Assembly (NCBI RefSeq): GCF_030388245.1
Contig: NZ_CP098361.1
Location: forward strand, 867,001 to 931,000
DNA: 64,000 nucleotides
Direction: 5' to 3'
DNA from: Paracoccus sp. TOH
Lineage (GTDB): Bacteria; Pseudomonadota; Alphaproteobacteria; Rhodobacterales; Rhodobacteraceae
In this document: positions 10,300 to 27,911 of the stretch, piece after piece
Layout of the letters: every line of letters starts with the position of its first letter
Numbering within the stretch: position 1 is the first letter of the stretch
Notes under the pieces: model-generated
What the model was told of the DNA's origin: nothing
The model's database searches: none
What the model saw: the letters and a program-made list of their open reading frames with translations, nothing else
Made by a program: the position numbers and the translations under genes

Positions 10300-10320
10300 G
10301 AAGTGGCAGCCCGTAGGGGA
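10300..10320 (+). repeat. Left attachment site of the island (core direct repeat)
   Basis: The 21-nt sequence GAAGTGGCAGCCCGTAGGGG plus A matches 27833-27853 exactly; with one mismatch the match extends to 26 nt (10295-10320). It corresponds to the acceptor and T-arm 3' strand of tRNA-Glu but is not followed by the rest of the tRNA. Confidence 0.9.
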
Positions 10321-10508: not shown

Positions 10509-10514
10509 TTGACT

Positions 10515-13039: not shown

Positions 13040-13050
13040 CAGCATGCGCT

Positions 13051-13061: not shown

Positions 13062-13143
13062 GCCCATCCGGCGGCGGAGAGCCGGCAATTTCGGCTGATA
13101 CGATTTCTTGGTGATATCCGGTATAGACGCGCAGGAGGCCCGC

Positions 13144-13389: not shown

Positions 13390-13553
13390 AGGCGCTGGCC
13401 TTCACCGTCGCGGCAACGGTCGATCTGGAGGAGATCTGCAATTATACGGAATGCGAATGGGGACAGGTGGCCTCGGGGCCGAGGTCGCGCACGGCATCTG
13501 TGACGGGCCATGTGCCGATGAGCGGATTGCAATATTGGCATATACGCTTGTGA
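13386..13553 (+). pseudogene. parE: Truncated parE toxin
   Basis: The first 27 residues (MKALAFTVAATVDLEEICNY, then TECEWG) are a recognisable ParE/RelE-fold N-terminus. The next 28 residues match nothing in the family, and the frame stops at 55 aa where about 95 are expected. The break falls just before the right arm of the inverted repeat at 13532-13542. A deletion or replacement of the 3' half is likelier than a single frameshift, because I see no ParE-like continuation in the other frames. Confidence 0.75.
13532..13542. repeat. Right arm of the inverted repeat around parDE
   Basis: ATATTGGCATA, the reverse complement of 13051-13061. It lies inside the aberrant tail of the parE remnant. 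Confidence 0.5.
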
Positions 13554-13570
13554 GCATGGAGAGCCTGGAG

Positions 13571-13852
13571 ATGACTTATCTGCTCAGCGATTATCCGGTC
13601 CTGGCGCGGCTCGCGGTCGGCAGGACCGAGGCGACAAGTCTCGATGCCCGTGCCTGCCACGGGCTCTATGCACGGGCGATGGCCGCCGATCTGCGTGCGA
13701 TGGGGCCGAGAGAACGCCGGTTCTACGACCTGCTGTCTCTGATCGACTCCGGCGGACCAGTTGCAGCCCTTCAGGCGCGTGTCCGGGCCGCCGGCTTTCG
13801 CCGTATGCCTGATGAACAGGCCTTTCTGGACGACCTGTCCGGGGGCATCTGA
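13571..13852 (+). CDS. Small hypothetical protein
   Basis: 93-aa open frame preceded by GGAGAGCCTGGAG; an alternative ATG lies at 13556. The product is cytoplasmic and mostly helical by composition, with a motif DLRAMGPRERRFYDLLSLIDSGGP in the middle (quoted in parts of the chain). I do not recognise the family. It follows the broken parE at once and ends 37 bp before a strong terminator, which makes it the last gene of the repC-mobV-parDE transcription unit. Confidence 0.5.
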   Translation: MTYLLSDYPVLARLAVGRTEATSLDARACHGLYARAMAADLRAMGPRERRFYDLLSLIDSGGPVAALQARVRAAGFRRMPDEQAFLDDLSGGI

Positions 13853-13889
13853 CCCGAGGCGGATGCGGGCAGCATTCTCGTCCAACGCA

Positions 13890-13913
13890 TAGCCCAGAGT
13901 GGGCTACTTTTTT
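13890..13913 (+). terminator. Intrinsic terminator at the end of the plasmid-like gene block
   Basis: Perfect stem TAGCCCA-GAG-TGGGCTA followed by C and six T. It closes the rightward repC...13852 unit. Confidence 0.85.
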
Positions 13914-13946
13914 GCGATTTCGCCAAATATTAGTGACCGACTATTA

Positions 13947-13982
13947 TTTTGCGGGGCCCGGTGCAAAGCACCACCCGCAAAA
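13947..13982. repeat. Large nested hairpin
   Basis: The outer arms TTTTGCGGG/CCCGCAAAA are perfect, and the inner arms GGTGC/GCACC enclose AAA. It lies between two convergent units, shortly after the terminator and before the ATPase gene's 3' end. It could serve as a back-up terminator for either strand, or be a remnant end of an inserted element. Confidence 0.55.
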
Positions 13983-14053
13983 TGTCGGACCAGGCGCTGC
14001 GCCCCGGTACCCAGCTTTCTCCGCCCATGAAGAAGATAGATTCCCCCTGATGT

Positions 14054-14073
14054 CGCCCGATGGGCGGCCGCAA
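14054..14073 (+). repeat. 20-bp direct repeat flanking the DUF4143 ATPase gene, copy A
   Basis: CGCCCGATGGGCGGCCGCAA is repeated exactly at 15458-15477. The two copies sit immediately outside the ATPase gene, 5 bp past its stop and about 210 bp before its start. Copy B also forms a GCCGCCC/GGGCGGC palindrome. Confidence 0.8.
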
Positions 14074-14077
14074 CCAA

Positions 14078-15250
14078 TTACGGATGAAGCGCCAGCAGAT
14101 CCTGCCCGAACTGGTGCAGCGGCATGACCTCGATGCCGTTCGGCAGCGGGAAAGCCTCATCCCCCGGATAGACCACGATCCGCCGCGCCGGTTGCAGGTC
14201 TTCGCAGGCCGAGTGAAAGCCGCGCTCGACCTTGGGCGCCAGGTTGCGCTTGACCTCGACGGCCCAGACCGCGCCGCCCGGCAGGGTCAGCACCAGATCA
14301 ACCTCGGCGCCCGCACCGCTGCGGTAGAACTGGGCCTGCGTCCCTTCTGGCATCAGGGCATGGGCGGTCTCGATGATCAGACCTTCCCAACTGGCGCCCG
14401 CGATGGGGTGGCCGAGAACGTCGTCCAGCGTCGTCAGCCCCAGAAGGGCGTGCAGGATGCCGGTGTCGCGCACATAGATGCGGGGCGACTTGACCAGCCG
14501 CTTGCCGATATTCGCGTGCCAGGGCTCCAGGCGGCGCACCAGCATCAGATCGACCAGCAGGTCGAGATAGGAAGCGACGGTCTTGGCATCGACCCCGAGC
14601 GCGCGGGCCAACTCGGCGGCGTTCGACAGGCCGGATTGCCGATGCGCCAGCATGGTCCAGAAGCGGCGCAGCGTCTCGGCCGCGATGCGGGGGCCGAGCG
14701 CGGGAATGTCGCGCTCCAGATAGGTGCGGATGAAGTCGCGCCGCCAGCGCAGGCTGACCTGATCGTCGCGGGCGAGGAAGCTGTCGGGAAAGCCGCCGCG
14801 CAGCCAGAGCCGGTCCAGATCGGCAGCGGGAACCTCCAGCGCATCGAGGGGGGCGAGTTCGGCATAGGCGATCCGGCCCGCCAGCGTCTCGCCGGATTGC
14901 CGCAGCAGGTCTATGGAAGCCGAGCCGAGCAGCAGGAACCGCCCCGCCCGCAGCCCCTTGCGCCGGCCCCGGTCGATCAGGCCGCGCAGGTTCTGGAACA
15001 GGTCCGGCACGCGCTGGACCTCATCGAGGATGACCAGCTTGTCCTCATGCGCCGAAAGGTAGAGTTCCGGGTCCGAGAGCCTGGCCCGGTCGGCGCTGGA
15101 TTCGAGGTCGAGATAGAGCGACGGCCGCTCTTCCCCCAGCTCCTGCGCCAAAGTGGTCTTGCCGACCTGGCGCGGCCCCAGCAGGGCAACGGCAGGGCTG
15201 TCGTCCAGCAGGGACTTCACGGTTGCGGTGATACGGCGCTCGATCAACAT
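14078..15250 (-). CDS. AAA+ ATPase with C-terminal DUF4143 domain
   Basis: 390-aa stand-alone ATPase of the AAA_14/DUF4143 group. Walker A is GPRQVGKTT (residues 25-33) and Walker B is LVILDEVQ (about 72-79). The sensor-1 segment is RFLLLGSAS. A winged-helix region follows (LSNAAELARALGVDAKTVASY). The C-terminal half contains GAEVDLVLTL and WAVEVKR, the D...E-x-K pattern of a PD-(D/E)xK-like fold. Such proteins are common accessory genes in bacteria and archaea, and their cellular role is not established. It is convergent with the plasmid-like block and bracketed by 20-bp direct repeats, so it may have been acquired as a unit. Confidence 0.85.
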   Translation of the reverse strand: MLIERRITATVKSLLDDSPAVALLGPRQVGKTTLAQELGEERPSLYLDLESSADRARLSDPELYLSAHEDKLVILDEVQRVPDLFQNLRGLIDRGRRKGLRAGRFLLLGSASIDLLRQSGETLAGRIAYAELAPLDALEVPAADLDRLWLRGGFPDSFLARDDQVSLRWRRDFIRTYLERDIPALGPRIAAETLRRFWTMLAHRQSGLSNAAELARALGVDAKTVASYLDLLVDLMLVRRLEPWHANIGKRLVKSPRIYVRDTGILHALLGLTTLDDVLGHPIAGASWEGLIIETAHALMPEGTQAQFYRSGAGAEVDLVLTLPGGAVWAVEVKRNLAPKVERGFHSACEDLQPARRIVVYPGDEAFPLPNGIEVMPLHQFGQDLLALHP

Positions 15251-15457
15251 CCTTGCAATTATGGATATTTATTCCTGATTTGCAAGGTTGATCGGGGTGA
15301 TGTTCCCATTTCTGCGGGGGTTACTTCAATGAGCCTAGCTGCCGGAAGGCACGCTGCATGTCTTCGGGCTTGTGCATGACGACCAACAATAGCGCAAGCA
15401 CAGTCAAGCCGGCTTGGAAACGTGGGATATCTTGACCGGCGGCAGCTTGAAGGGTGC

Positions 15458-15477
15458 CGCCCGATGGGCGGCCGCAA
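15458..15477 (+). repeat. 20-bp direct repeat flanking the DUF4143 ATPase gene, copy B
   Basis: Exact copy of 14054-14073, in the same orientation; the match extends to 23 nt with one mismatch. It abuts the inverted repeat at 15474-15524. Confidence 0.8.
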
Positions 15478-15524
15478 ACCCCATTCCGCCCCAGCCTCGT
15501 GGGGGCGGTCGGAATGTGGTTTGC
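15474..15524. repeat. 15-bp inverted repeat
   Basis: GCAAACCCCATTCCG (15474-15488) pairs with CGGAATGTGGTTTGC (15510-15524) with a single mismatch. Together with the hairpin at 15530-15581 it makes the gap between the ATPase gene and the four-gene unit highly structured. The rest of this gap (15251-15457) shows no gene that I can support. Confidence 0.65.
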
Positions 15525-15529
15525 GCGCA

Positions 15530-15581
15530 GCCTGACCCCGGCCCGCTCGCATCACGGCGGGCCGTAGGGACGGGGTCAGGC
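15530..15581 (-). terminator. Nested hairpin at the end of the leftward small-gene unit
   Basis: Outer arms GCCTGACCCCG/CGGGGTCAGGC and inner arms GGCCCGC/GCGGGCC. The right arm overlaps the stop codon of the last gene in the leftward unit, so it probably terminates or protects that transcript. There is no T-run. Confidence 0.55.
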
Positions 15582-15785
15582 GAATTCGTTTTCCCAGCAG
15601 GCCATCATCCAGCGCTCATCGCTGTCGGGCAGGTCGATGCCGTAGAATTCCAGCACCTGGGTGAGGTCGTAGATGCGCTCTTCCTGCTCCGGCTCGGTCA
15701 GCGCGGCCCACCAGTTGCGTGCCTTGACCTCATCCGGCTGGAAGATCGATGCGGGCAGTTCGCCTTTGAACGGTTGCGGGGGCAT
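15576..15785 (-). CDS. Small hypothetical acidic protein
   Basis: 69 aa, acidic and rich in aromatic residues (WWAALTEPEQEERIYDLTQ in the middle, WMMACWENEF at the end). There is no signal peptide or membrane helix. AGGAG lies six nt before the ATG. It is the last gene of the leftward unit that starts at 17176, after a 107-nt gap from the previous stop. I do not recognise the family. Its composition would suit a DNA mimic or an antitoxin-like partner, but nothing in the sequence proves that. Confidence 0.6.
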   Translation of the reverse strand: MPPQPFKGELPASIFQPDEVKARNWWAALTEPEQEERIYDLTQVLEFYGIDLPDSDERWMMACWENEFA

Positions 15786-15892
15786 TATTTGTCTCCTGTC
15801 ATTGGCCGCTGATCCGACGAGGCTGAGGCGGTGGCCCGTGCCTCGCCCATTTCCTGGGCGGGAACCCAGTTCAGGGCGTGAGGTTCCTGCCC

Positions 15893-16171
15893 TCAGCCCT
15901 TGAACCGGGAAACCTCGGGCAGCGCGGGAAGATATCGCAGGGCCGCCAATGCCATCTCCGCATTCACGCCCGCCGGCAGATCGGCGGTATCTCCCTCAGC
16001 GATATGTATCAGCCGCGCCCGCAGCGTATTCCAGCTGAGGGGGCGGCCGGCCGTCATCTTTGCCATCACGACCCGACCGATGGTGAACGCAACCATGTCC
16101 GGGCTGTTCAGGTAGTCAGGCCCGTTACGCCGATATCCGTTGGTTGCGTGCATGGTCCCGTGGGAGGTCAC
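15893..16171 (-). CDS. Hypothetical protein in the coupled island unit
   Basis: 92 aa from a GTG start that overlaps the upstream stop as GTGA, with AGGAGG six nt before it. It could instead begin at the ATG seven codons in. The C-terminal half (NTLRARLIHIAEGDTADLPA and onward) looks helical, and there is no membrane segment. I do not recognise a family. Start-stop overlap with the secreted protein gene upstream implies that they are made together. Confidence 0.6.
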   Translation of the reverse strand: MTSHGTMHATNGYRRNGPDYLNSPDMVAFTIGRVVMAKMTAGRPLSWNTLRARLIHIAEGDTADLPAGVNAEMALAALRYLPALPEVSRFKG

Positions 16172-16677
16172 CGCTCGCCTCCTGTCATCCATGGCCGGAT
16201 CGCGTCCAGCGCCGCCGCCGATCCGGCGAGGCTGAAGCGGTGGCGCTTGCCGCCGAAGCCGATCTCGACCCATTCCGCCTGCCGCACATTGTGGACGAAG
16301 AGGTTGGTCGCGCCCATGCCGGCCGTGTCGAAATTGCTCAGCAGGATGTCGCCACCGTCTGCCACGAAATCCAGCTTCTCGCCATTCGAGAACCGGATGC
16401 TGACCCGTTCGCCCGCCTCGGCATTGCGGCCGTCCAGCGTCACGCTGACGCGGCAGTTGTTGAAGTCGCAGGTGCCGTTGGCGTCGAGGTCGTTCATCTG
16501 GTCGGTGCGGGTGATCCAGATCTCGTTGCCGCGCACCCGGCGCGGGCTGACCTCGCCGGTCTCGTTGGTGAAGGTCCAGTATTCGGCGCCGCCCTCGACG
16601 GAGGCCTCGAAAAACCAGCCGGCGGCGATGGCCGGGCTGGCGAGGGCGATCAGGGCGGCGGTGAACAGGTGCTTCAT
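16168..16677 (-). CDS. Secreted (periplasmic) hypothetical protein
   Basis: 169 aa with a typical signal peptide (MKHLFTAALIALASPAIAAG; cleavage after about residue 18 or 19). The mature part is predicted beta-rich and contains two cysteines in CDFNNC, able to form a disulphide in the periplasm. There is no lipobox and no known motif. It overlaps both neighbours (ATGA with the RHH gene before it, GTGA with the gene after it). The function is unknown. Confidence 0.7.
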   Translation of the reverse strand: MKHLFTAALIALASPAIAAGWFFEASVEGGAEYWTFTNETGEVSPRRVRGNEIWITRTDQMNDLDANGTCDFNNCRVSVTLDGRNAEAGERVSIRFSNGEKLDFVADGGDILLSNFDTAGMGATNLFVHNVRQAEWVEIGFGGKRHRFSLAGSAAALDAIRPWMTGGER

Positions 16678-16856
16678 GATTCCAGATCCTCCGGGGGAAT
16701 GTCGATGCCGGCATCGGCCAGCGCCTGTGCGATCAACTGGCTCATGGTGATGTCGCGCCGCAGCGCCTCGATCCGCAGGGACTTGTGCGCTTCGGCGCTG
16801 AGGCAGATCGAGGTGCGCTTCGGGCCGGCGATCGGTTTCCGCTTCGCGGCCTTCAT
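16674..16856 (-). CDS. Small ribbon-helix-helix protein
   Basis: 60 aa. A basic N-terminus (MKAAKRKPIAGPKRTSICLS) leads into SAEAHKSLRIEALRRDITMS, which has the strand-helix-helix pattern of RHH regulators such as plasmid CopG/ParG-like proteins. A family with this layout is often annotated as a plasmid partition or mobilization accessory protein. It overlaps the gene on each side by 4 nt. It could autoregulate this unit. I am confident in the fold but not in the role. Confidence 0.65.
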   Translation of the reverse strand: MKAAKRKPIAGPKRTSICLSAEAHKSLRIEALRRDITMSQLIAQALADAGIDIPPEDLES

Positions 16857-17176
16857 CGATACCAGCCCTCCTGCATGCGGGGGATCACGTAGCGCAGGAA
16901 CAGGCCGACGCCGCCGGCGAACAGCATGAAGGGCGACAGGAAGAGGAAGGCGATCAGGCCGTCGAATGCCGTCGTTTGGTCATCGACCGATGCAACCCAG
17001 GTACCAAAGACTATGCCGGCCAAGACGAAGAATGCGGCCACGCCGAGCATGAAGGTCGATGCCTGGCGCCAGCTTTCGACCGAGCGGCCCCACACACCGC
17101 GGATCGCCCCGCAGGCGGGGCAGGTGGAGGCTTCGGCGTGAATCTCGGTCATGCAATGCGGACATTGGTGGGGCAT
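16853..17176 (-). CDS. Zinc-ribbon membrane protein
   Basis: 107 aa and the first gene of the unit. The N-terminal zinc ribbon has C5-x2-C8 and C19-x2-C22 (CPHC, CPAC). Two membrane helices follow, at about 42-63 and 76-95, with a basic C-terminal end. Zinc ribbon plus transmembrane pairs occur in many small envelope proteins and in some phage-defence proteins, without one common function. The upstream region to 17450 should hold its promoter, but I could not place hexamers with confidence. Confidence 0.7.
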   Translation of the reverse strand: MPHQCPHCMTEIHAEASTCPACGAIRGVWGRSVESWRQASTFMLGVAAFFVLAGIVFGTWVASVDDQTTAFDGLIAFLFLSPFMLFAGGVGLFLRYVIPRMQEGWYR

Positions 17177-17452
17177 GGCGGGCTCCTGGACGTTTAGAAT
17201 GCTGGACTGGGTCGGGTCCGATCTCGGCGGATGGAGGATGGATAACCGGGTGTTCGGCCCGACTGGCCGTCATTTGTTCGTGGTCATGGACCAGAGCAAC
17301 AGCGCTACATCTGCCACTCCCAGCCGGCAGTGGAGCCAGATCTGACAAAAGTTGAACCATGATCGGCTCATCGAACGTGCTGTGCGCTTTGATCATCGAA
17401 GTGTTGGAAGATCGCTAAAGGTTCAAAGAAAACTGACGGTCGCCAGAATGAT
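17177..17452. other. Intergenic region between the leftward unit and the controller gene
   Basis: No gene is supported here. It must carry the promoter of the leftward zinc-ribbon unit and sits ahead of the C-box. Base composition drops toward the right (17,380-17,480), where the controller promoter is expected. Confidence 0.5.
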
Positions 17453-17474
17453 ACGATTAGTCCGTGGACGATTA
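17453..17474 (+). promoter_or_regulatory. Candidate C-box (operator of the controller gene)
   Basis: ACGATTA (17453-17459), AGTCCGTGGAC around the palindrome GTCC-GT-GGAC (17459-17469), and a second ACGATTA (17468-17474). The AGTCCGTGGAC core is that of C-boxes in front of C-protein genes of restriction-modification systems (the PvuII type, from memory). It lies 21 nt before the controller ATG, the usual place. Confidence 0.65.
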
Positions 17475-17494
17475 AACCCCTTTTATTGTGCTAC

Positions 17495-17731
17495 ATGGGC
17501 ATGGAGCGCAAGTTTACGGTCGAGGACTTCGGGAGGCGGGTACGGGAGCTGCGCAAGGCGCAGGGCCACTCGCAAGAAGGCTTTGCGCTGACCGTGGAGC
17601 TTGACCGAACGTACATCGGAGGCATTGAACGCGGAGAACGCAATCCGGGCCTCAAGACCATCCTCAGGATCGCCGACGCGCTCGGGGTGCCAGCCGCAGA
17701 ACTGTTCCGGGAGAAACGAGGACTCCCCTGA
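17495..17731 (+). CDS. XRE-family regulator resembling restriction-modification controller (C) proteins
   Basis: 78 aa, a single helix-turn-helix domain and nothing else. The pattern is that of C proteins: LRKAQGHSQEGFALTVELDR, then TYIGGIERGERNPGLKTIL and IADALGVPAAELF. C proteins bind C-boxes ahead of their own gene and delay restriction while methylation builds up. A C-box-like site lies 21 nt upstream. Starts at 17486 (TTG) and 17501 are also open. hsdR begins about 570 bp downstream on the same strand. Control of the type I cassette is inference; an orphan regulator left by a lost type II system is the main alternative. Confidence 0.75.
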   Translation: MGMERKFTVEDFGRRVRELRKAQGHSQEGFALTVELDRTYIGGIERGERNPGLKTILRIADALGVPAAELFREKRGLP

Positions 17732-18303
17732 GGTAGTTGCGACATGCGTGGGGATGAACTTCCGAAGGCAGAGGGGCAGGGGAACCTGACAGTTTGGCTC
17801 CACCACCTCGAAGCGCACCCGGGACATGACGTCGATTGCACGCTGAAGGTCAGAACTCCGCTCAGCTATCTTACGCGATTGATGATCAAGGGGAGCGAGA
17901 GGACAAGGCATTCCCCGTTCTCGTGCGAGAGCTGCTGGAACAGCACGGGTATGGTGGTGGTGACAATATGACGGCCGGTTGAGATCGGGCAGATCTGCAC
18001 GGATCCGGCCGCATGGCGCAGAGTGACGGCGCAGACGACCTTGGCCGCTGCCCCAGTGCATCATTGCCTTTCCTGACAGAAACTGGTCAAACTAACGAAA
18101 AACCTTGAGAATATCGCATTGAAGCAGCAAGCTTTGTCTGCCTTCCTGAGGTCTGTCGCCGATCTGCTACGGGGTGGTTTCTGTAGCTTTTCGGGTCGAA
18201 TGGTGGCGTTGGTATCTCGACACGTTTGGAAGCAGAGGCTAGTTCAGGGACGACCTACCCCGCCGCATGCGTGACAGTGCGGCTGCAAGATCCGGCGGAA
18301 TGA
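17732..18303. other. 570-bp stretch without a supported gene, upstream of hsdR
   Basis: Short open frames on both strands have no recognisable product. One rightward fragment, ending near 17982, reads like the tail of a protein (EDKAFPVLVRELLEQHGYGG) but has no credible start, so it may be the remains of a deleted gene. The AT-richer part at 18080-18180 is the best place for the hsdR promoter. Confidence 0.4.
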
Positions 18304-21270
18304 ATGACTAAAGAAACAGAGATCGAGCAGGAGTTCATTAGAAAGCTCGCAGAGCTTAAGTATTCGCATCGCGATGACATTCGTGATCAAGAGGGGCTTG
18401 AGCGAAACTTCCGCGAAAAATTCGAATCCCTGAACCGGGTCAGGTTGACCGACAGCGAGTTTGAGCGGCTGCTCGAAGAAATCGTGACGCCAGACGTGTT
18501 CGCCACTGCGGAGCGGTTGCGGCACTGGAATACTTTCGAGCGCGAAGATGGCACGCCACTGCATTACCAACTCGTAAACCTGAAGGACTGGTGCAAGAAC
18601 AGCTTTGAGGTCGTTGGTCAACTGCGGATGAACACGCGGAGCAGCCATCACCGGTACGATGTGATCCTGCTCCTCAATGGCTTGCCGCTAGTGCAGATCG
18701 AACTAAAATCGCTGCAGGTCTCGCCGCGCAAGGCGATGCAGCAGATTGTCGATTATCGCAACGATCCGGGTAATGGCTACGGGAACAGCCTGCTGTGTTT
18801 CATGCAGCTATTCATCATCAGCAATCGCAGCCAGACCTGGTATTTTGCCAACAACAACAACGAGCATTTCTCCTTCAATGTCGAGGAGCGGTTCCTACCG
18901 ATCTATCGCTGGGCCACTCGCGACAACAAGAAGGTTGAGCATCTATCGGAATTTGCTGACCAGTTCTTGGCTAAGTGCACCTTGGCCGAGATGATCAATC
19001 GCTACATGGTGCTCATTCAGAACGAGCGAAAGCTCATGATGATGCGCCCCTATCAGGTCTATGCGGTCAAGGCGATCATCGACTGTATCGACGAGAACCG
19101 AGGAAATGGCTACATCTGGCACACCACCGGCTCGGGGAAGACGCTGACCTCGTTCAAGGCATCGACTCTGCTCAAGGACAATTCTGACATCGAGAAATGC
19201 CTCTTCGTGGTCGACCGGAAGGATCTCGACAAACAGACGCGCGACGAGTTCAACCGCTTCCAGCCCGGTTGCGTCGAGGAGAACACAAACACCGAAACTC
19301 TGGTGCAGCGGCTACTGTCCGACGACTATAGGAACAAGGTGATCGTCACCACGATCCAGAAGCTGGGTCTCGCGCTGGACGGAACGAATAAGCGGCAATA
19401 TCGTGAGCGCCTTGAGCCGTTGCGTGACAAGCGCATCGTTTTCATCTTCGATGAATGCCACCGCTCCCAGTTCGGCGAAAACCACAAGGCGATCCGTGAA
19501 TTCTTCCCGAACGCTCAGCTCTTCGGCTTCACCGGCACGCCGATCTTCGAGCAGAATGCCACCGCCGTCCGGATCGAGGATCAGGAAGCGCGTCTGATGA
19601 CGACAAAGGAGGTCTTTGAAAAGGAGCTCCACGCCTACACCATCACCCACGCCATCGACGACGGCAACGTGCTGCGCTTCCATGTGGACTACTTCAAGCC
19701 CGACGGCGCTCCCATCAAACCCGGCGAGACGCTGGCAAGGCGTGCCGTGGTCGATGCGATCCTGGCCAAGCACGACTTGGCCACCAACCAGCGCAAGTTC
19801 AACGCGCTCTTCGCGACGGCCTCGATTGACGACGCCATTGACTACTTTCGCCTCTTTCGGGAGGCTCAGGCCGAGCGCGCCGTGCAGGATGAGGACTTCA
19901 TGCCGCTCAATATTGCCTGCGTCTTCTCGCCGCCGGCAGAAGGCGACCGCGACGTTGCCCAACTGCAGGAGGACCTGCCTCAGGAGCTGGAGGATAACAA
20001 GAAGGAGCCCGGTCGCAAGAAAGCGGCGCTGGCAGAGATCGTCGCCGACTATAACGCCCGCTATGGCACCAATCACGATCTGGCGAATTTCGACAGCTAT
20101 TATCAGGATGTGCAGCAGCGAATCAAAGGCCAGAAATATCCCAACAGAGACCTGCCGCACGCGAAGAAAATCGACATCACCATCGTGGTGGACATGCTGC
20201 TGACGGGCTTCGATTCGGCCTATCTCAACACGCTCTATGTTGACAAAAACCTGAAATATCACGGCCTCATCCAGGCCTTTTCGCGCACCAACCGGATGCT
20301 GAACGATTCCAAGCCTTACGGCAATGTGCTTGACTTCCGCGCTCAGCGTGATGCGGTGGACGAGGCCATTGCGCTCTTTTCGGGCGAGGCGCCAGACCGG
20401 GCCAAGGAAGTCTGGCTGGTCGATCCTGCGCCAAAGGTGATCGGGAAGCTCGAGGATGCCACGCGAAAGCTGAAGGACTTCATGGCTGCGCACGGGCTTC
20501 AACCCCGCCCCGAGGAGGTGAGCAACCTCAAAGGCGATGAGGCGCGCGCGGGCTTTATCGAGCGCTTCAAAGAGATCAAGCGGCTCACCACCCAACTTGA
20601 CCAGTACACCGACCAGACCCCAGAGCAGAAGGCCCAGATCGAATCCTTGATCCCCCGCGACGATCTGCGCGCCTTTTCTGCCCAGTATTTGGAAACGGCC
20701 AGGCGCCTGCAGCAGGAAAGCCGCACGCGGGATGACCCCGAAAATCCTGCCGAACAAATCGATTTTGAGTTCGTGCTCTTTGACAGTGCGCTGATCGATT
20801 ACGACTACATCATGTGTCTCATCGTCCGTTTCAGCCAGGCCGTGCCGAAGCGGCAGAGGATGACTCGCGAAGAACTCATGCGCCTGCTCGCCTCTTCCGC
20901 CCGCCTGATGGAGGAACGAGACGACCTCGAGGCCTATGTCGCCACGCTGAAGGAGGGCGAGGGGCTGAGCGAGGAGGAAGTCCGCAAGGGCTACGAACGC
21001 TTCAAGGCCGGGCGTCAGGCGGCCGAGCTTGCCAGCATCGCCGGGAAGCACGACCTGTCCGCCGAGGCACTGCAGCGCTTCGTCGATCTGACTCTTGATC
21101 GCTACATCTTTGATCCCGACACCTTGACCGATCTGTTCCGCCCCCGAGGTCTTGGCTGGAAGGCGCGGGCGCGAGCTGAGCTTGCACTGATGGATGACGT
21201 CATCCCCCTTCTGCGCCGCAAGGCCGAAGGGCGCGAGATTTCGGGGCTGGAAGTTTATGAAGAGTACTGA
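18304..21270 (+). CDS. hsdR: Type I restriction enzyme, R subunit
   Basis: Translocase and nuclease subunit that with HsdM and HsdS cuts unmodified DNA far from the recognition site. It has 988 aa, the usual size. The N-terminal PD-ExK nuclease site is D119...E133-L-K135 (RYDVILLLNG, QIELK). The SF2 helicase core has Walker A TTGSGKT at about 275-281, the DECH box (FDECHRSQ) at about 381, and the later motif GFTGTPIF. A helical C-terminal region binds the methylase core. Its stop overlaps the start of hsdS by 14 nt. It opens the cassette, where many type I loci have hsdM first. Confidence 0.95.
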   Translation: MTKETEIEQEFIRKLAELKYSHRDDIRDQEGLERNFREKFESLNRVRLTDSEFERLLEEIVTPDVFATAERLRHWNTFEREDGTPLHYQLVNLKDWCKNSFEVVGQLRMNTRSSHHRYDVILLLNGLPLVQIELKSLQVSPRKAMQQIVDYRNDPGNGYGNSLLCFMQLFIISNRSQTWYFANNNNEHFSFNVEERFLPIYRWATRDNKKVEHLSEFADQFLAKCTLAEMINRYMVLIQNERKLMMMRPYQVYAVKAIIDCIDENRGNGYIWHTTGSGKTLTSFKASTLLKDNSDIEKCLFVVDRKDLDKQTRDEFNRFQPGCVEENTNTETLVQRLLSDDYRNKVIVTTIQKLGLALDGTNKRQYRERLEPLRDKRIVFIFDECHRSQFGENHKAIREFFPNAQLFGFTGTPIFEQNATAVRIEDQEARLMTTKEVFEKELHAYTITHAIDDGNVLRFHVDYFKPDGAPIKPGETLARRAVVDAILAKHDLATNQRKFNALFATASIDDAIDYFRLFREAQAERAVQDEDFMPLNIACVFSPPAEGDRDVAQLQEDLPQELEDNKKEPGRKKAALAEIVADYNARYGTNHDLANFDSYYQDVQQRIKGQKYPNRDLPHAKKIDITIVVDMLLTGFDSAYLNTLYVDKNLKYHGLIQAFSRTNRMLNDSKPYGNVLDFRAQRDAVDEAIALFSGEAPDRAKEVWLVDPAPKVIGKLEDATRKLKDFMAAHGLQPRPEEVSNLKGDEARAGFIERFKEIKRLTTQLDQYTDQTPEQKAQIESLIPRDDLRAFSAQYLETARRLQQESRTRDDPENPAEQIDFEFVLFDSALIDYDYIMCLIVRFSQAVPKRQRMTREELMRLLASSARLMEERDDLEAYVATLKEGEGLSEEEVRKGYERFKAGRQAAELASIAGKHDLSAEALQRFVDLTLDRYIFDPDTLTDLFRPRGLGWKARARAELALMDDVIPLLRRKAEGREISGLEVYEEY

Positions 21271-22549
21271 AGCCAAAGGCCCTGCCCCCCGCCTGCGCTT
21301 CCCCGAATTCCACGATGCCGGGCCGTGGGAGGTGAAGCGGTTGGGGGACGTCTATCGGTTTAAGCCCACCAACTCTTGGCCAAGGGATCGGCTCAACTAT
21401 GAGGCCGGCAGTGTCAGAAACATCCATTACGGCGATATCCACAAAGGGCTTAACAGCACGTTTCGCCTAGGCGAAGAGGCTGTTCCCTTCCTCCACGACG
21501 AACTTGCGGTGAAACGTGCCGAAGATGCCTATTGCGAACCGGGTGATATCGTGTTCGCCGATGCTTCGGAGGACATCGTGGACGTCGGTAGAGCGATTGA
21601 AATCATTGATACCGATGGGGAAAAGCTGGTTGCCGGTCTGCACACGATATTGGCTAGACAGATCGAGAGAAGGTTGATCTCAGGGTTTGGGGCTTACCTG
21701 TTCGCGTCCAGTGGGATCAGAACCCAGATACAGGAACGCGCCCAGGGTGCAAAAGTTCTCGGCATCTCCAAGTCGCAGCTTGCGGAAGTAAAGCTGGCAT
21801 ACCCGAAGGATGAGCGCGAACAACAAAAGATCGCTGATTGCCTGTCCTCGCTCGACGAACTGATCCGGGCGGAAGGTGAGCGGCTGGCGGCGCTGAAGGA
21901 TTACAAGACGGCTTTGATGCAGCGCCTTTTCCCCGCCCCCGGCGAGACTATCCCCCGCCTGCGCTTCTCGGAATTCCGCGACGCGGGGGCGTGGAAGGCG
22001 GCGCGCTTGGGAGATAAAGGCATAGTGCAGTTTATTCGGGAACGCGTTGGGCGCGAACATATCCCCTTGGGTCATTACGTCAGCACCGTGAACCTGCTCC
22101 CCGATTTTGGGGGGTTGTCGGCAACTCCCGAGCCCCCCCCTTTGGCAAGCGCCGTTGCATACCGTGAAGGCGATATCCTGGTGTCGAACATTCGCCCTTA
22201 TTTGCGAAAGGTCTGGATCGCTGACCGGATAGGCGGAGCATCAAATGATGTTTTGGTCGCACGTCCCGGGGACAGTATCGTCCGAACATTTCTGGGTCAT
22301 CTGTTGATGTCGGATCGCTTCATTGCTCACGTCATGGACGGTGCGAAGGGCGTAAAGATGCCCCGCGGAGACCTTGATCATATTCGGGACTTCGAGATCC
22401 CTTGTCCTACTAAGTTGGAGCAACAGAAGATTGCCGGTTGCCTCACCTCGCTCGACGAGCTAATCCGCGCGCAGAACAAGAAGATCAAGGCGCTGAAAGC
22501 CCACAAGCGCGGCCTGATGCAGCAGCTTTTCCCGCAGGAGGCAGGTTGA
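21257..22549 (+). CDS. hsdS: Type I restriction-modification specificity subunit
   Basis: DNA-recognition subunit, 430 aa, with two target-recognition domains. Each is introduced by a similar sequence (RLRFPEFHDAGPWEVKRLGD and RLRFSEFRDAGAWKAARLGD). Each is followed by a long helix with the same text (QQKIADCLSSLDELIRA and QQKIAGCLTSLDELIRA). This internal duplication is also visible in the DNA. The two domains differ from each other, so a bipartite asymmetric target is expected, which cannot be deduced here. The start is inside the end of hsdR. The prrC start codon follows 3 nt after the stop. Confidence 0.93.
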   Translation: MKSTEAKGPAPRLRFPEFHDAGPWEVKRLGDVYRFKPTNSWPRDRLNYEAGSVRNIHYGDIHKGLNSTFRLGEEAVPFLHDELAVKRAEDAYCEPGDIVFADASEDIVDVGRAIEIIDTDGEKLVAGLHTILARQIERRLISGFGAYLFASSGIRTQIQERAQGAKVLGISKSQLAEVKLAYPKDEREQQKIADCLSSLDELIRAEGERLAALKDYKTALMQRLFPAPGETIPRLRFSEFRDAGAWKAARLGDKGIVQFIRERVGREHIPLGHYVSTVNLLPDFGGLSATPEPPPLASAVAYREGDILVSNIRPYLRKVWIADRIGGASNDVLVARPGDSIVRTFLGHLLMSDRFIAHVMDGAKGVKMPRGDLDHIRDFEIPCPTKLEQQKIAGCLTSLDELIRAQNKKIKALKAHKRGLMQQLFPQEAG

Positions 22550-22552
22550 GCA

Positions 22553-23680
22553 ATGGCGGATGCGCAGTCCTTCGACACAATCGAGGCGCTTGCTGCCCAC
22601 CTGCGGCAAGAAATCGAGGGGAAGAACAAGAAATGCACCCTTGTTTTTGCCCATAACGGCACCGGCAAAACGCGGCTGTCGATGGCGTTCAAGGAGCTCG
22701 GTAAGGCACGCGACGAAGCCGGCGTGGTCACGGCCCGCGATACGCTCTATTTCAACGCCTTTACCGAGGATCTCTTCAGCTGGGATAACGACCTGCAAAA
22801 CGACCACGACCGCGTGTTGCGGATGAATACAGCATCCGCCTTCTTCGTCGGCCTTGCCGAGCTGGAGATGGAGAACCGCATCCGCCCCGTCCTGCGCCGC
22901 TACTGCACCTTCGATTTCCAGATCGACTATGATGAGGGTACAGTCTTGTTCTGGCGCGAGACCGCGAGGGATGCGGCCGGCGAGGACGTGCCCCTGCCTA
23001 TCAAGATCTCGCGCGGCGAAGAAAACATCTTCATCTGGTGCTTCTTTCTAGCGGTAGCGCAGCTCGCCATCGACGGTCAGGAACCCTATGACTGGGTGAA
23101 ATACCTCTACATCGACGATCCGATTTCCTCGCTCGACGAAAACAACGCCATCGCCGTCGCCGCTCATCTAGCGCGGATGCTGAAAGCGCAGGATCGGCTC
23201 AAAGCGGTTGTCTCCTCTCATCACACGCTGTTCTTCAACGTTCTGTGCAATGAGCTGAGCAATCCGTGGCAGTTCTTCCTGAGCCGCGACGGGAACGGTT
23301 GGCAGTTGCGCAACACGGGTCAGACGCCGCGCTTCTACCACGTCGCGATGATGAAGGAACTCACTGAGGCCGCGCTCTCCGGCAGGCTCTACACCTATCA
23401 CTTTACCGTCCTGCGCAGCATCATGGAGAAAACGGCCACTTTTCACGGGTTCAGCCATTTCGGCGACGTGATGAAGCGCGACCCGGATGATGAGGACGGC
23501 ACGTTGCACTTCCGCTATATCCAACTTTTTAGTCATGGCAGTTATCACTTATTCGAGCCGACCGAAATGATGCCAGAGAACAAGGACATTTTCCGCAAGG
23601 TACTGGACAACTTCATGAGAGATTACCGGTTCAACCCCGAGCTATTCCCCGAGGCTGAGGCAGCGGAGGCGCCCGTATGA
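22553..23680 (+). CDS. prrC: Anticodon nuclease PrrC, nested in the type I R-M operon
   Basis: Latent toxin that cleaves the anticodon loop of a tRNA (tRNA-Lys in E. coli) when the associated restriction enzyme is inactivated, aborting phage growth. It has 375 aa against 396 for E. coli PrrC. The N-terminal NTPase domain has a P-loop at about 33-40 (AHNGTGKT) and the PrrC-specific segment YFNAFTEDLFSWDNDLQ (about 66-82). An ABC-like signature SRGEE lies near 153 and Walker B YIDDPISSLDE at about 186-196. The C-terminal nuclease domain keeps R288 and E292 (VLRSIMEKTA) and H328 (LFSHGS), matching R320/E324/H356 of E. coli PrrC by context. AGGAGG precedes the ATG, and the stop overlaps hsdM as ATGA. 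It is intact with no frameshift. Confidence 0.9.
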   Translation: MADAQSFDTIEALAAHLRQEIEGKNKKCTLVFAHNGTGKTRLSMAFKELGKARDEAGVVTARDTLYFNAFTEDLFSWDNDLQNDHDRVLRMNTASAFFVGLAELEMENRIRPVLRRYCTFDFQIDYDEGTVLFWRETARDAAGEDVPLPIKISRGEENIFIWCFFLAVAQLAIDGQEPYDWVKYLYIDDPISSLDENNAIAVAAHLARMLKAQDRLKAVVSSHHTLFFNVLCNELSNPWQFFLSRDGNGWQLRNTGQTPRFYHVAMMKELTEAALSGRLYTYHFTVLRSIMEKTATFHGFSHFGDVMKRDPDDEDGTLHFRYIQLFSHGSYHLFEPTEMMPENKDIFRKVLDNFMRDYRFNPELFPEAEAAEAPV

Positions 23681-25326
23681 CCGAGCAAGACCAGATCAGA
23701 CTGGGCAGGACGCTCTGGGCCATCGCCGACGAGCTGCGCGGGGCGATGAACGCAGATGACTTCCGCGACTATATGCTATCGTTTCTGTTCCTGCGCTATC
23801 TTTCCGACAGTTACGAGGAGGCCGCGAAAGCTGAGCTCGGGGCCGACTGGCCGGATCTACCGCCCGACGTCTTGCGGAAAAGCGGTGCCTCAAGCCAACT
23901 TCAGGTCTGGTATGAAGAAAACCCCGGTGACACGGAAGAATTTGAAGAGGTGATGCGCCGCAAGGTGCATTATGTTATCGAACCGCCCTATCTCTGGAGT
24001 TCCATCGCCGAGATGGCGCGCACCCACAGCGACGGGCTCTTGCGCACGCTCCAGCGCGGCTTCAAGTTCATCGAGAACGAATCTTTCTCCAGCAGCTTCC
24101 AGGGCCTTTTCTCCGAGATCAACCTGGACTCCGAAAAGCTGGGCAAGGACTATAAGCAGCGCAATGCCCGGCTCTGCACGATCATCCAGAAGATCGCTGA
24201 GCGGTTGGCGGGCTTCCCTAGCGAGCGTGATCTTCTGGGAGATGCCTATGAATATCTGATCGGTCAGTTCGCCGCCGGCTCGGGCAAGAAGGCAGGCGAG
24301 TTCTATACTCCGCAACAGATTTCCAGCATCCTGTCGGGCATTGTCACGCTCGACGGCCAAGACCCGGTCTCGGGCAAGCGTGAGAAGCTGAAACGGGTCT
24401 ATGATTTCGCCTGCGGCTCGGGCTCGCTGCTCTTGAACGTGCGTCGCCACATGGACAAGCATGGTATCGGCAAAATCTACGGGCAGGAAAAGAATATCAC
24501 CACCTACAACCTCGCTCGGATGAATATGCTGCTGCACGGTGTGCGAGACACAGAGTTCGAAATCCATCACGGCGACAGCCTAGAAAACGATTGGGACATC
24601 CTGCGCGAGCCGAATCCGGCGAAGAAGATCGAGTTCGACGCTGTGGTCGCCAACCCGCCCTTTAGTTACCGCTGGAATCCGACCGAGGAGATGGCTAAGG
24701 ATTTTCGCTTCAGAGACTATGGGCTTGCGCCCAAGTCGGCGGCAGATTTCGCCTTTCTGCTGCACGGGTTCCATTTCTTGGCGAAAGACGGAACCATGGC
24801 GATCATCCTGCCGCACGGCGTTCTGTTCCGGGGCGGGGCCGAGAAGACGATCCGCAGCAAACTTCTGAAGGACGGCAATATCGATACGGTAATCGGCCTG
24901 CCGGCTAAGCTGTTCTATTCGACCGGCATTCCGGTGTGCATTCTGGTGCTGAAGAAGTGCAAGCGAACCGATGACGTGCTGTTCATCAACGCGGCTGAGC
25001 ACTATCATCCGGGCAAGAGACAAAACGTGCTCCTGCCCGAGCACATCAACAAGATCGTGGAGACCTACAAGCACCGCAAAGTAGAGAACCGTTATTCGCG
25101 GGTGGTCACCCTGGAGGAGATCGAGAAAGAACACGACTTCAATCTCAACATTTCCCGCTATGTAAGCACTGCTGAAATTGCGCAGGACGTCGATCTAGCA
25201 GCCGTGCATCACCAGCTAAATAATCTGAACGAACGGATCCAGTCGGCGGCCAATAAGCATAATCGGTATCTTTATGAGCTCGGTCTGCCTCCTTTGCGTT
25301 TCGGTGATGACGTCAAATCTGATTGA
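23677..25326 (+). CDS. hsdM: Type I restriction-modification methyltransferase subunit
   Basis: N6-adenine methyltransferase that with HsdS protects host DNA and with HsdR forms the restriction complex. It has 549 aa. The N-terminal HsdM helical domain covers about 1-165. SAM motif I is FACGSGSLL at about 243-251, and catalytic motif IV is NPPF at about 325. GEFYTPQQI, a motif of type I methylases, lies near 207-215. Its start overlaps the prrC stop (ATGA), so the two are translated together. That would let the cell keep a set ratio between the nuclease and the complex that silences it. Confidence 0.95.
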   Translation: MTEQDQIRLGRTLWAIADELRGAMNADDFRDYMLSFLFLRYLSDSYEEAAKAELGADWPDLPPDVLRKSGASSQLQVWYEENPGDTEEFEEVMRRKVHYVIEPPYLWSSIAEMARTHSDGLLRTLQRGFKFIENESFSSSFQGLFSEINLDSEKLGKDYKQRNARLCTIIQKIAERLAGFPSERDLLGDAYEYLIGQFAAGSGKKAGEFYTPQQISSILSGIVTLDGQDPVSGKREKLKRVYDFACGSGSLLLNVRRHMDKHGIGKIYGQEKNITTYNLARMNMLLHGVRDTEFEIHHGDSLENDWDILREPNPAKKIEFDAVVANPPFSYRWNPTEEMAKDFRFRDYGLAPKSAADFAFLLHGFHFLAKDGTMAIILPHGVLFRGGAEKTIRSKLLKDGNIDTVIGLPAKLFYSTGIPVCILVLKKCKRTDDVLFINAAEHYHPGKRQNVLLPEHINKIVETYKHRKVENRYSRVVTLEEIEKEHDFNLNISRYVSTAEIAQDVDLAAVHHQLNNLNERIQSAANKHNRYLYELGLPPLRFGDDVKSD

Positions 25327-25553
25327 TGGCTGTATGAGCAAGGCGTGAATCTGCTATTGAACAGGATGCTAGAAGGGGGCGTACAACCGGGCCATATTGA
25401 ACCACAGTTTGAATGCGGACGAGACCTGCCCACCAGCCGTGACCGGAACTCAGTTGGCATTGCTGTGCCGTAGGAGTACCTTTTCAAAGCGTAGTGATTG
25501 TCTGCATTTCGCCTTGTGTCGACGGCTCATCCTTTGAGCGTATGCGGCGAAAG

Positions 25554-25802
25554 CTAGTGCTGCGGCGCCCGTTTTTTCTCTAAGCCGTAGATAACCCAAG
25601 TGAGAATAACGACACCAAACGCACCTATAAGGCTCAAAAGAAATAGGATGAGGGACGTTTCGGCTTGCTCCTGCCTAATGACAAGGGCGGGGATGAGTAA
25701 CGCCATAAGAAAGTAGCAGAGTTTTGCGGTTTTCGTAATGTTGTGCGTCAATCCACTTATTAGATTGTTGTTGTAGCTGGACAGAAATTCTTTATCTTTC
25801 AT
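25554..25802 (-). CDS. Small membrane protein
   Basis: 82 aa with two predicted membrane helices (about 25-41 and 51-72) separated by a short charged loop (RQEQAETS), and a basic C-terminus ending KKRAPQH. The start ATG lies inside the end of the XRE repressor gene (11-nt overlap), so the pair is coupled. I do not recognise a family. Its size, topology and place behind a repressor resemble superinfection-immunity or holin-like accessory proteins of mobile elements, which is only a guess. Confidence 0.6.
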   Translation of the reverse strand: MKDKEFLSSYNNNLISGLTHNITKTAKLCYFLMALLIPALVIRQEQAETSLILFLLSLIGAFGVVILTWVIYGLEKKRAPQH

Positions 25803-26208
25803 CGGCTGTTTTCTCCCGGGATGCCATGTACTCTTCGATGTCGCGGTCGCTGAATTCAGGCTTCGACAGCGTTTGCTTAAGCAAGAAAGCAATCGCTCCT
25901 ATATGCCGTGAGCAGTCATCTCGCTGGGCTTGGGGCAAGAGCGGAAGAATACGTGACAGTTGTTTTGCTATTGCTTCAGTTGAGTGCCCAACCTCCCCTA
26001 GAGCCAAGTTATCGATTGTGGTGCCCGCCATCTCCGCAGCTTTGGCTAGCACTGAGATGGGAGCCTCACGATTGCCCCATTCGTAGTTTCGGTAGGCGGC
26101 GACGGAGACGCCCAATTCCTTAGCCATGTCACCCTGAGACAGATGTCTGCTTTGGCGTAACAGGCTCAGTCGCGTGCCGATTGCCACGTTGTCGAGTTTA
26201 GGCCTCAA
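25792..26208 (-). CDS. XRE-family repressor-like regulator
   Basis: 138 aa from a TTG start. The N-terminal helix-turn-helix reads RLSLLRQSRHLSQGDMAKEL, then GVSVAAYRNYEWGNREAPIS. The C-terminal half is helical and may dimerise, and it lacks the Ser-Lys protease dyad of LexA-type repressors. The gene is divergent from a small HTH gene, and the shared 90-bp gap contains a strong promoter and an ACATATGT palindrome. This is the usual layout of a repressor governing the excisionase/integrase side of an island or phage. The overlap with the membrane-protein gene suggests one transcript. Confidence 0.8.
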   Translation of the reverse strand: MRPKLDNVAIGTRLSLLRQSRHLSQGDMAKELGVSVAAYRNYEWGNREAPISVLAKAAEMAGTTIDNLALGEVGHSTEAIAKQLSRILPLLPQAQRDDCSRHIGAIAFLLKQTLSKPEFSDRDIEEYMASREKTADER

Positions 26209-26211
26209 GTC

Positions 26212-26239
26212 TTGACTCGCAATACATATGTGTTATATT
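26212..26239 (+). promoter_or_regulatory. Rightward promoter with overlapping palindrome
   Basis: TTGACT (26212-26217), 16-nt spacer, TATATT (26234-26239). The spacer contains the palindrome ACATATGT (26223-26230), a candidate operator for the divergent XRE repressor. It would drive the excisionase-like gene and, beyond it, the integrase. Confidence 0.65.
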
Positions 26240-26298
26240 TGATCGAATCGTAGCGCAATTGCGTGGGCCTTGATGAATTTCCATCGTTGAGATCAGAT

Positions 26299-26496
26299 AT
26301 GACACAAAATGTGCTGTTGTCGCAAGACTTTGTATCACCCCAGAAGCTGTCAAAAATCACGGGATGGCCCATCGGAAGGATTCGCCGCCTTATAAGGGAC
26401 CGGAAGGTTCGCTTCGTAATGGTTGGGCGCAATTACTATCTGCCCTCAACTGCTCTCGTGGAATATGTTGAGTGCAACATGGTAGATCCTGAATGA
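26299..26496 (+). CDS. Small helix-turn-helix protein, excisionase-like
   Basis: 65 aa. FVSPQKLSKITGWPIGRIRR followed by LIRDRKVRFVMVGRNYYLP has the winged-helix pattern of HTH_17/excisionase proteins: a helix-turn-helix, then a beta wing leading to a YYLP-type motif. I chose ATG 26299; a GTG at 26263 would add 12 residues. It sits between the repressor and the integrase, where directionality factors of tyrosine recombinases are usually encoded. It may also be an AlpA-type activator. Confidence 0.65.
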   Translation: MTQNVLLSQDFVSPQKLSKITGWPIGRIRRLIRDRKVRFVMVGRNYYLPSTALVEYVECNMVDPE

Positions 26497-26569
26497 AGTT
26501 TTATGGCTTGTGCCGTGCGTGACGCGATTATCACGCGATTAGTACGCTACTGTGATTGAGGTCCATCCG

Positions 26570-26749
26570 ATGAGTCGTCCTGTCGCCCCATCCTTACCAA
26601 CTGAAAAGCAGGTGCGCGATATTTACGAAATTGTGTCAAGCTTTCGTGCTGATGCGCGAATTGTGCGGATAGGTCCAGACGGAGTGACCTTTGAGTATAA
26701 CGCGCAGACCATTACCTACTCTGCCGACCGTCCATTCAACGGAGATTAG
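26570..26749 (+). CDS. Small hypothetical protein upstream of the integrase
   Basis: 59 aa, with TGAGG eight nt before the ATG. There is a helical first half (TEKQVRDIYEIVSSFRADAR) and a beta second half (IVRIGPDGVTFEYN). It ends 5 bp before the integrase start, so it is in the same transcript. I do not recognise a family. Small proteins of this shape often accompany integrases in alphaproteobacterial islands, with no known role. Confidence 0.55.
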   Translation: MSRPVAPSLPTEKQVRDIYEIVSSFRADARIVRIGPDGVTFEYNAQTITYSADRPFNGD

Positions 26750-26754
26750 CCGTA

Positions 26755-27752
26755 ATGGCAGGTTATCTCAGATCGCGCAAACGTCGAGGCCGTTGGTTTC
26801 ATTACTATCGGCGAAACGGAAAGGAGATTTCGTTAAATGTTCATGGATTGCCGCCGAACGATCCGCGAGTTATGGCGGCGTACTGGGCTGAACATGTGCG
26901 TTGGGAGCATAGCCCCCAAGAGGCACAAAGGCCTCAAAAGAATAGCTTTGCATGGGCGGTTGATCTGTATCTTTCTGGAAACAAGGAGTGGGCAAGATAC
27001 GCAAGAAACACCCAAAAAGCACGCTTGGCAATCCTGCGCCGTTATGTTTCCGCCCAAGGGGATCGCTTGCTCTCCGACATCACTCAGAAAGCCATAGAGA
27101 TCGCGCTCTACCAAAAGGGCGGCCAAGCTGCTGTCAGCGAATACAAGGCCCTCAAGCCGGTATTTGAACATGCGCGTCGCTTGCATATCATTGAACGGAA
27201 TCCGATGACCGGAATGGAATTGGACCGACCAAAATCGAAAGGCTTTCCTACTGCTGACGCCGCCGACATAGGCGCGTTCATTGCCCGCTGGGATATAGGA
27301 ACGGTCGGGCGCCTGATATTCGATTTGGCGCTTTAACCGGCGCGGCTCGTGTCGATCTGGTGAGAATTGGTCGACGCAATATGAGCGGTGGGCTGCTAAC
27401 GTTCGATCGACAGAAAACAGGGGTCACATGCAATGTTCCGCTGACCAAGGAGCTGCGCTCTGTAATTGCTCGGACTCCTGACATCGCACCGACCTTCATC
27501 CTGAACAAATATGGAAAGCCTTATACTCCTGAAAGCCTAGGTAACCTTTTTCGTGATGCCGCCGCCGCTGCCGGCATGAAGGCAAGGTTGCATGGGTTGC
27601 GCAAGGCATTCTGCGTCTACTGGGCGGAGCAGGGGAAATCCACACATCAGATCGCGGCGATGGCGGGCCATCTAACCCTTGGGGAGGTAGAGCGCTATAC
27701 GCGGGCTGTCGACCGTCAGCAGATTGTTCGGCTTATCGTTGAGGGCGCGTAA
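26755..27752 (+). pseudogene. int: Frameshifted tyrosine recombinase (island integrase)
   Basis: The first frame (26755-27336, 193 aa) holds the arm-binding and core-binding part and stops at TAA right after FDLAL. The second frame (-1 relative) continues at once with TGAARVDLVRIGRRN and runs to 27752. It contains the catalytic residues: the first Arg in the TGAAR region, HGLRKAF (H-x-x-R), MAGH and the nucleophile Tyr in VERYTRA. Joining the frames gives a normal integrase of about 331 aa. One missing base near 27335 explains it (TACACC to TAACC, or a -1 slip). As read, no active enzyme is made. A sequencing error cannot be excluded. Confidence 0.88.
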
Positions 27753-27775
27753 TCTGGGACACAGTATGCTCGCGA

Positions 27776-27789
27776 CTGGGACACGCGCG
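27776..27789 (+). repeat. Candidate integrase arm-type site, right
   Basis: CTGGGACACGCGCG, an exact copy of 10363-10376, 43 nt inside the right core repeat; a shorter copy CTGGGACAC lies at 27754-27762. Confidence 0.6.
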
Positions 27790-27832
27790 TGTATCCATAT
27801 GATAGAAAAGGGAAAATCATGAAAAATTGGAG

Positions 27833-27853
27833 GAAGTGGCAGCCCGTAGGGGA
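27833..27853 (+). repeat. Right attachment site of the island (core direct repeat)
   Basis: Exact 21-nt copy of 10300-10320. Positions 27837-27853 are the 3' end of tRNA-Glu copy 2 read on the minus strand, so integration left the tRNA intact. Confidence 0.9.
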
Positions 27854-27911
27854 GTCGAACCCCTCTTTTCAGGTTGAAAACCTGACGTCCTAACCGATAG
27901 ACGAACGGGCC
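27837..27911 (-). tRNA. tRNA-Glu (anticodon TTC), copy 2, integration target
   Basis: Sequence identical to the copy at 10057-10131: anticodon loop TTTTCAA, encoded CCA at 27837-27839. Its 3' end forms the right boundary of the island. Confidence 0.96.

Follow-up and report, generated by a model that had tools for sequence, protein, structure and literature searches.

Within a 64,000-nucleotide stretch of Paracoccus sp. TOH DNA (contig NZ_CP098361.1; the whole stretch is referred to here as the window), a first-pass annotation had read the frame at 22553–23680 as an intact PrrC anticodon nuclease, encoded in a type I restriction-modification (R-M) operon on a mobile island. Is this frame a genuine PrrC, does its setting set it apart from known systems, and which tRNA would it cut? 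The features on which the answers depend are as follows.

18304..21270, + strand: hsdR, 988 aa, EcoR124-like (type IC) restriction subunit
21257..22549, + strand: hsdS, specificity subunit with two target-recognition domains (PF01420, Methylase_S, in two stretches)
22553..23680, + strand: prrC, 375 aa, ATG start, TGA stop, internal stops absent
prrC protein, domains: N-terminal Rad50/SMC-like ABC ATPase head, residues ~5–265; C-terminal anticodon-nuclease domain (HEPN-type by literature)
prrC protein, residues: Walker A K39; Walker B/D-loop region 188–195; nuclease R288, E292 and H328; Q257
23677..25326, + strand: hsdM, 549 aa, N6-adenine methyltransferase subunit
25792..26208, − strand: helix-turn-helix (XRE-type) regulator gene (PF13560, PF01381), past the operon end

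The prrC frame is open throughout, with AGGAGG at 22536–22541, 11 nt upstream of its ATG. The PADLOC PrrC model PDLC02360 matched residues 6–363 to model positions 18–349 of 372 with an E value of 3.4e-130, and its score of 432 bits lies far ahead of the next model (55.5 bits). A search with PF13166, which the first-pass annotation had proposed as a check on PrrC/RloC membership, gave 40.6 bits against a cut-off of 36; the NCBIfam profiles gave no match at E ≤ 0.01. The motifs quoted in that annotation (AHNGTGKTRLS, DDPISSLDE, LRSIMEKTA and LFSHGS) are all present in the protein. At least 8000 homologues were retrieved at E ≤ 0.001. Among the matches listed, the 58 directly after the query (P0002–P0059) are 79–86% identical to it at nearly equal length, and the best named relatives are from Gemmobacter and Paracoccus. 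Five putatively viral loci in IMG/VR matched PrrC, two of them on contigs equal in length to those of L003 and L006, and none of 50,697 phage records gave a match. Judged from its sequence, 22553–23680 is, as had been claimed, a genuine and intact prrC whose R-M operon sits within an island, and it joins an already known kind of PrrC.

As the E. coli reference we used L096, a plasmid-borne E. coli PrrC of 396 aa encoded in an hsdM-hsdS-prrC-hsdR locus. This protein has K46, D222, D287, R320, E324 and H356, and D222, D287 and the triad R320/E324/H356 are the published EcoPrrC positions (PMC3014915, PMC2610378). The window protein is 31–32% identical to L096, and its K39, D195, R288, E292 and H328 align with K46, D222, R320, E324 and H356, so that the triad proposed at first reading falls on the PrrC triad. 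The R-E-H triad is found in 214 rows of a 216-row alignment (212 rows distinct); the two that lack it, L093 and L094, represent a single split ORF present twice. Across the window and 80 genome loci encoding relatives, the triad is kept in 81 of 81, and the K39 position is K in 80 and R in one. The ABC-type ATPase motifs (K39, SRGEE, IDDPISSLD and H223) are also conserved, and YFNAFTEDLFSWDND in the window protein matches YYNAFTEDLFYWDND in L096 as a candidate PrrC box. We take SRGEE to be the signature, H223 to be the linchpin histidine and the YFNAFTEDLFSWDND block to be the published 15-residue PrrC box.

The predicted structure was searched by fold over residues 5–265. The matches listed were Rad50, SMC, ABC transporter, Septu, Gabija and retron ATPases; PrrC was absent among them. 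The C-terminal part was modeled as helical with the conserved R ... H present, and PrrC has been placed in HEPN (PMC3710099). This nuclease domain is modeled less confidently: 10-residue block means lie at 65–87 from residue 251 onward and drop to 46 and 37 at the C-terminal tip. Sequence searches for a solved PrrC structure found none with either query. The window protein gave a single match, to a beta-glucanase (E 0.75), and L096 a single weak match, to 9hxn_A (E 0.027), over residues 290–356; this PDB entry is the antiviral protein Ec1Ap.

The genes that adjoin prrC form a type I R-M operon, and its linkage to type IC comes from the EcoR124_C domain and from matches to EcoR124. HsdR carries PF12008 EcoR124_C (2.4e-57) and matches the EcoR124 HsdR chain 2w00 (2.8e-115). 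HsdM carries PF02384 (1.1e-104), scores over the cut-off of TIGR00497 and matches the EcoR124II M chain 7bst_D (8.7e-84), with the type I M subunit 3lkd_A ahead (8.4e-112). The ORF positions bear out the order hsdR-hsdS-prrC-hsdM given by the first-pass annotation. The start-stop overlaps it described hold at two of the three junctions: hsdR and hsdS overlap by 14 bp if hsdS starts at 21257 (a longer hsdS starting at 21194 is possible), and the prrC stop and hsdM start overlap by 4 bp (ATGA), but hsdS and prrC lie 3 nt apart. The regulator gene past the operon end is possibly a regulator of the operon or of the element.

The same annotation had pointed out that this order differs from that of the classical prr locus. 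The statement is correct, but the arrangement is not unusual; it is the rule for the clade to which the window protein belongs. Of the 283 genome loci encoding a relative, 80 were kept, and prrC lies between an upstream hsdS and a downstream hsdM in 77 of these; two of the other three have no visible hsdM and one no visible hsdS. Eight of the 77 have more than 300 bp between hsdS and prrC, and two others have more than 300 bp between prrC and hsdM. In 71 of the 80, hsdR precedes these genes on the same strand, and some of the others are cut by contig ends. An upstream hsdR with hsdS-prrC-hsdM is also found in E. coli chromosomes (L085–L087) and in IncC/IncA plasmids (L083 and L098). The classical hsdM-hsdS-prrC-hsdR order was seen in E. 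coli, Klebsiella, Paracoccus, Azotobacter, Enterococcus, Zymomonas and Vibrio plasmids. Both orders have prrC after hsdS, and it is hsdM and hsdR that swap. On a tree of 39 chosen PrrCs the order changes once, with a single branch (support 100/100) between 29 proteins from hsdR-hsdS-prrC-hsdM loci and 10 from hsdM-hsdS-prrC-hsdR loci. Operon order thus seems to follow an early division of the PrrC family, a division that goes unmentioned in the passages of the PrrC literature available to us and may nevertheless have been published. Gene order as the sign of a new system was rejected, given the 77 of 80 loci and the single change on the tree.

Several of these loci have further features. The hsdS-prrC gap reaches 0.8–4 kb in L018, L020, L024, L032, L047, L064, L073 and L078 (8 of the 80 loci). 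Close to its prrC locus but on the other strand, L018 also has another, divergent PrrC-like ORF (1529–2806, − strand, 425 aa, E 2e-8). In L083 (E. coli IncC) and L098 (K. quasipneumoniae IncA), a TrlF-family ATPase gene and a gene for an RNA-binding-domain protein lie between hsdR and hsdS.

Two characterized systems can be compared with the window operon. E. coli PrrC with EcoprrI shares with it the ABC ATPase and anticodon nuclease, the R-E-H triad, the type IC R-M operon and the position of prrC directly after hsdS; it differs in the identity given above for L096, in lying across the deepest branch of the tree, in its hsdM-hsdS-prrC-hsdR order and in having D287 where the window protein has Q257. 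EcoprrI keeps E. coli PrrC silent, and T4 Stp activates the nuclease (PMC3014915). PrrC170 of Klebsiella quasipneumoniae is encoded in a system of four genes, HsdR, HsdS, PrrC and HsdM, which is the order of the window operon as its authors list them. In the published account that system blocks T1 and T7, growth is arrested on PrrC induction, and tRNA sequencing identified tRNA-Lys as the target (PMC11555353). We compared PrrC170 through L098, also from K. quasipneumoniae, rather than through its own sequence. L098 lies in the clade of the window protein, to which it is 59.0% identical; its identity to L096 (34.6%) is close to the 35% reported between PrrC170 and EcoPrrC (PMC11555353), which suggests that PrrC170 belongs to this clade as well. 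Two PrrCs from loci with the classical order, L097 (Klebsiella) and L099 (Paracoccus), share 56–58% identity with L096. PrrC170 has an enterobacterial host, whereas the best named relatives of the window protein are from Gemmobacter and Paracoccus, and its proxy L098 has D at the D287 position where the window protein has Q.

We consider it very probable that the window encodes a latent anticodon nuclease of the PrrC family that is co-expressed with, and kept silent by, its own EcoR124-like (type IC) R-M complex. A phage product that inhibits this complex would activate PrrC in an NTP-dependent manner, and the nuclease would then cut the anticodon loop of the host tRNA-Lys(UUU) 5′ of the wobble base; translation would stop and the infection would be aborted. 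Latency, phage trigger, tRNA target and cut site are taken here from characterized relatives. The protein family, the triad, the predicted ATPase fold, the operon, the R-M subunit type, the island and the tRNA-Lys gene are established for this genome. Such a two-layer defense, restriction followed by tRNA cleavage, is the mechanism published for E. coli PrrC (PMC3014915); we predict it for the window operon on that basis and on the phage blocking by the same-order Klebsiella system (PMC11555353). Among R-M guardian nucleases, the hsdR-hsdS-prrC-hsdM branch has received less study, and the locus gives it a further member that is well preserved and lies on an island with clear boundaries.

The host genome (98.9% complete, five contigs) gave 45 tRNA matches, which were read with ARAGORN on 30 + 13 matches, plus the two tRNA-Glu genes in the window. 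They include one tRNA-Lys gene, with anticodon UUU and the loop CUUUUAA (CTTTTAA in DNA). A tRNA-Lys(CUU) pattern occurs at no place in the host genome, and the same pattern for UUU at one place, the known gene. If tRNA-Lys(UUU) is indeed the sole tRNA-Lys, its cutting would be expected to leave both Lys codons without a tRNA. The list of host tRNAs is incomplete, since tRNA-Ile(GAU), tRNA-Tyr and tRNA-Ala(UGC) are absent among the 45 matches read; these were probably missed or unassembled.

The target is complicated by one residue. The tRNA-Lys recognition segment (E. coli 284–294) aligns with the window protein, but D287, which in EcoPrrC contacts the modified wobble base (PMC3014915, PMC13191261), is replaced by Q257 within the anchored motif TGQTPRFYHV. 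The residue varies in the family: 212 distinct proteins have D in 75, Q in 67, K in 30, N in 12, A in 8, S in 7, E in 6, H in 5, V in 1 and R in 1. The balance shifts toward Q among the 83 distinct proteins that share at least 75% identity with the window protein: 64 have Q, six each have N and K, four have D, and H, R and E occur once each. Eight genome loci are among those 83 (Q 4, N 3, H 1), seven in Rhodobacterales-type records and one in a record titled Devosia. In E. coli PrrC, the replacements D287Q, D287H and D287N make the enzyme cut normal tRNA-Lys less and turn round the disadvantage of the hypomodified substrate, and the same paper states that PrrC substrates may vary because the tRNA-recognition sequence is variable (PMC3014915). 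The window protein may therefore be a genuine PrrC whose substrate, owing to Q257, is a differently modified tRNA-Lys or another tRNA in place of the mnm5s2U-modified tRNA-Lys of the E. coli type, a reading that we regard as possible and do not favor. By extension, the nearest branch (mostly Rhodobacterales and metagenomic proteins), in which the wobble-contact Asp is mostly replaced by Gln (or Asn, His), the changes that relax the modification requirement in E. coli PrrC, may have been retuned to a tRNA-Lys that its hosts modify differently, or to another tRNA, with the residue serving as a natural specificity switch; this proposal is rather doubtful. If the reading of Q257 is right, nature would here provide a test of how tRNA modification is sensed by an anticodon nuclease, with consequences for which phage tRNAs escape the nuclease.

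Other observations weigh against a changed substrate. The host has MnmA, an MnmD-type methyltransferase frame and a tRNA-Lys with the loop given above. The residue does not track the methyltransferase either: PF05430 (MnmC/MnmD methyltransferase) was over the cut-off in 6 of 24 D-type genomes and 10 of 26 others (Fisher P 0.37), in a test that covered 50 of the 81 genomes (the host genome and those of 49 of the 80 loci, leaving out L008, L012 and L054–L082) and counted genomes without correction for kinship. A host wobble-modification gene as the cause of Q257 is therefore unsupported. Site 257 is moderately variable: by entropy it comes 82nd among the 375 sites and fifth among the 45 sites of residues 255–299 (window and 80 loci), so that drift could account for the change; the idea that the site is exceptionally variable was rejected on the same ranks. 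We retain the reading that this PrrC most likely is latent under its R-M complex and, by analogy with its relatives, would cut the host tRNA-Lys(UUU).

The stand-alone MnmD-type frame (238 aa) adjoins a divergently oriented 383-aa frame at G000 C1:1243322–1244889 in the host genome. TIGR03197 (MnmC C-terminal oxidoreductase) gave 35 matches in this genome, none over the cut-off; two of the weak matches, at 46.9 and 19.9 bits, fall in this 383-aa neighbor of the MnmD frame, and the two frames are possibly a split MnmC.

The operon lies on an element for which the following features were identified.

10300..10320, + strand: left attachment repeat, 21 bp GAAGTGGCAGCCCGTAGGGGA, identical to 27833–27853
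10564–11685, + strand: plasmid-type RepC replication gene (PF03428, 5.5e-20), at the far end from the integrase
11678–13039, + strand: Mob/Pre relaxase gene (PF01076, 3e-07), beside the RepC gene
26755..27752, + strand: tyrosine integrase gene, split into ORFs 26755–27336 and 27360–27752
27833..27853, + strand: right attachment repeat, the 3′ end of the tRNA-Glu(UUC) gene 27837–27911 (− strand) and 4 bp beyond

The 21-bp repeat occurs in the window only at these two places. In three genomes of the same genus (G032, G009 and G026) the site is unoccupied, and the flanking MFS and recJ genes (assigned by Pfam) meet at two tRNA-Glu genes with a spacer of 169–201 bp; a fourth genome, G011, has one tRNA-Glu at the same site. 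Taken together, the repeats and unoccupied sites indicate that 10300–27853 is an island of ~17.5 kb between tandem tRNA-Glu(UUC) genes. The GC content is 59.4% for the island and 57.1% for its R-M/prrC part, compared with 68–69% for the flanks. The distribution of prrC is patchy, with a match in 6 of the 101 genomes (its own included) of the relatives search, some of them distant. The second integrase ORF matches PF00589 (3.4e-10), and the first, which has no integrase match, was assigned by position. The claim of a mobile island thus stands as far as the island is concerned, but its present mobility is doubtful because the integrase gene is split.

The split integrase gene also points to an ageing island, in which prrC could be an inactive relic riding in the R-M operon. 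We judge this very unlikely, since none of the four genes prrC, hsdR, hsdS and hsdM is truncated or interrupted, the triad and ATPase residues are kept, and the next 58 homologues listed, at the 79–86% identity given above, have nearly the same length.

Other genes were seen inside the island. A ParD antitoxin gene (13108–13389; PF03693, 5.1e-34) is overlapped downstream by an ORF without a Pfam match (13358–13852), and an AAA_14/DUF4143 ATPase gene lies at 14078–15250 (− strand).

That the protein is instead a DNA-damage-responsive nuclease of the RloC type, and not an R-M guardian, is hardly credible: its modeled ATPase head does resemble Rad50/SMC heads and RloC is a distant PrrC homologue (PMC2610378), but within its 375 residues the ATPase domain carries neither a coiled-coil nor a CxxC zinc-hook insert, the hallmark of RloC, the PrrC model outscores the next by a wide margin, prrC stands in an operon with hsdRSM, and the same genome encodes a separate RloC-like protein. 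The latter (L001:1462–3690; G000 C1:1847500–1849623) resembles the window protein in its PF13166 ABC ATPase and C-terminal R-x3-E ... H motif, and differs in its length of 742 aa, its long insert and its CxxC motif. A search of the 5.1-kb locus around it gave no hsd genes. It matches PADLOC PDC-S06 at 3.2e-265 and, with the motifs CEFC, R-x3-E and LSH, is a candidate RloC-like ABC-HEPN protein.
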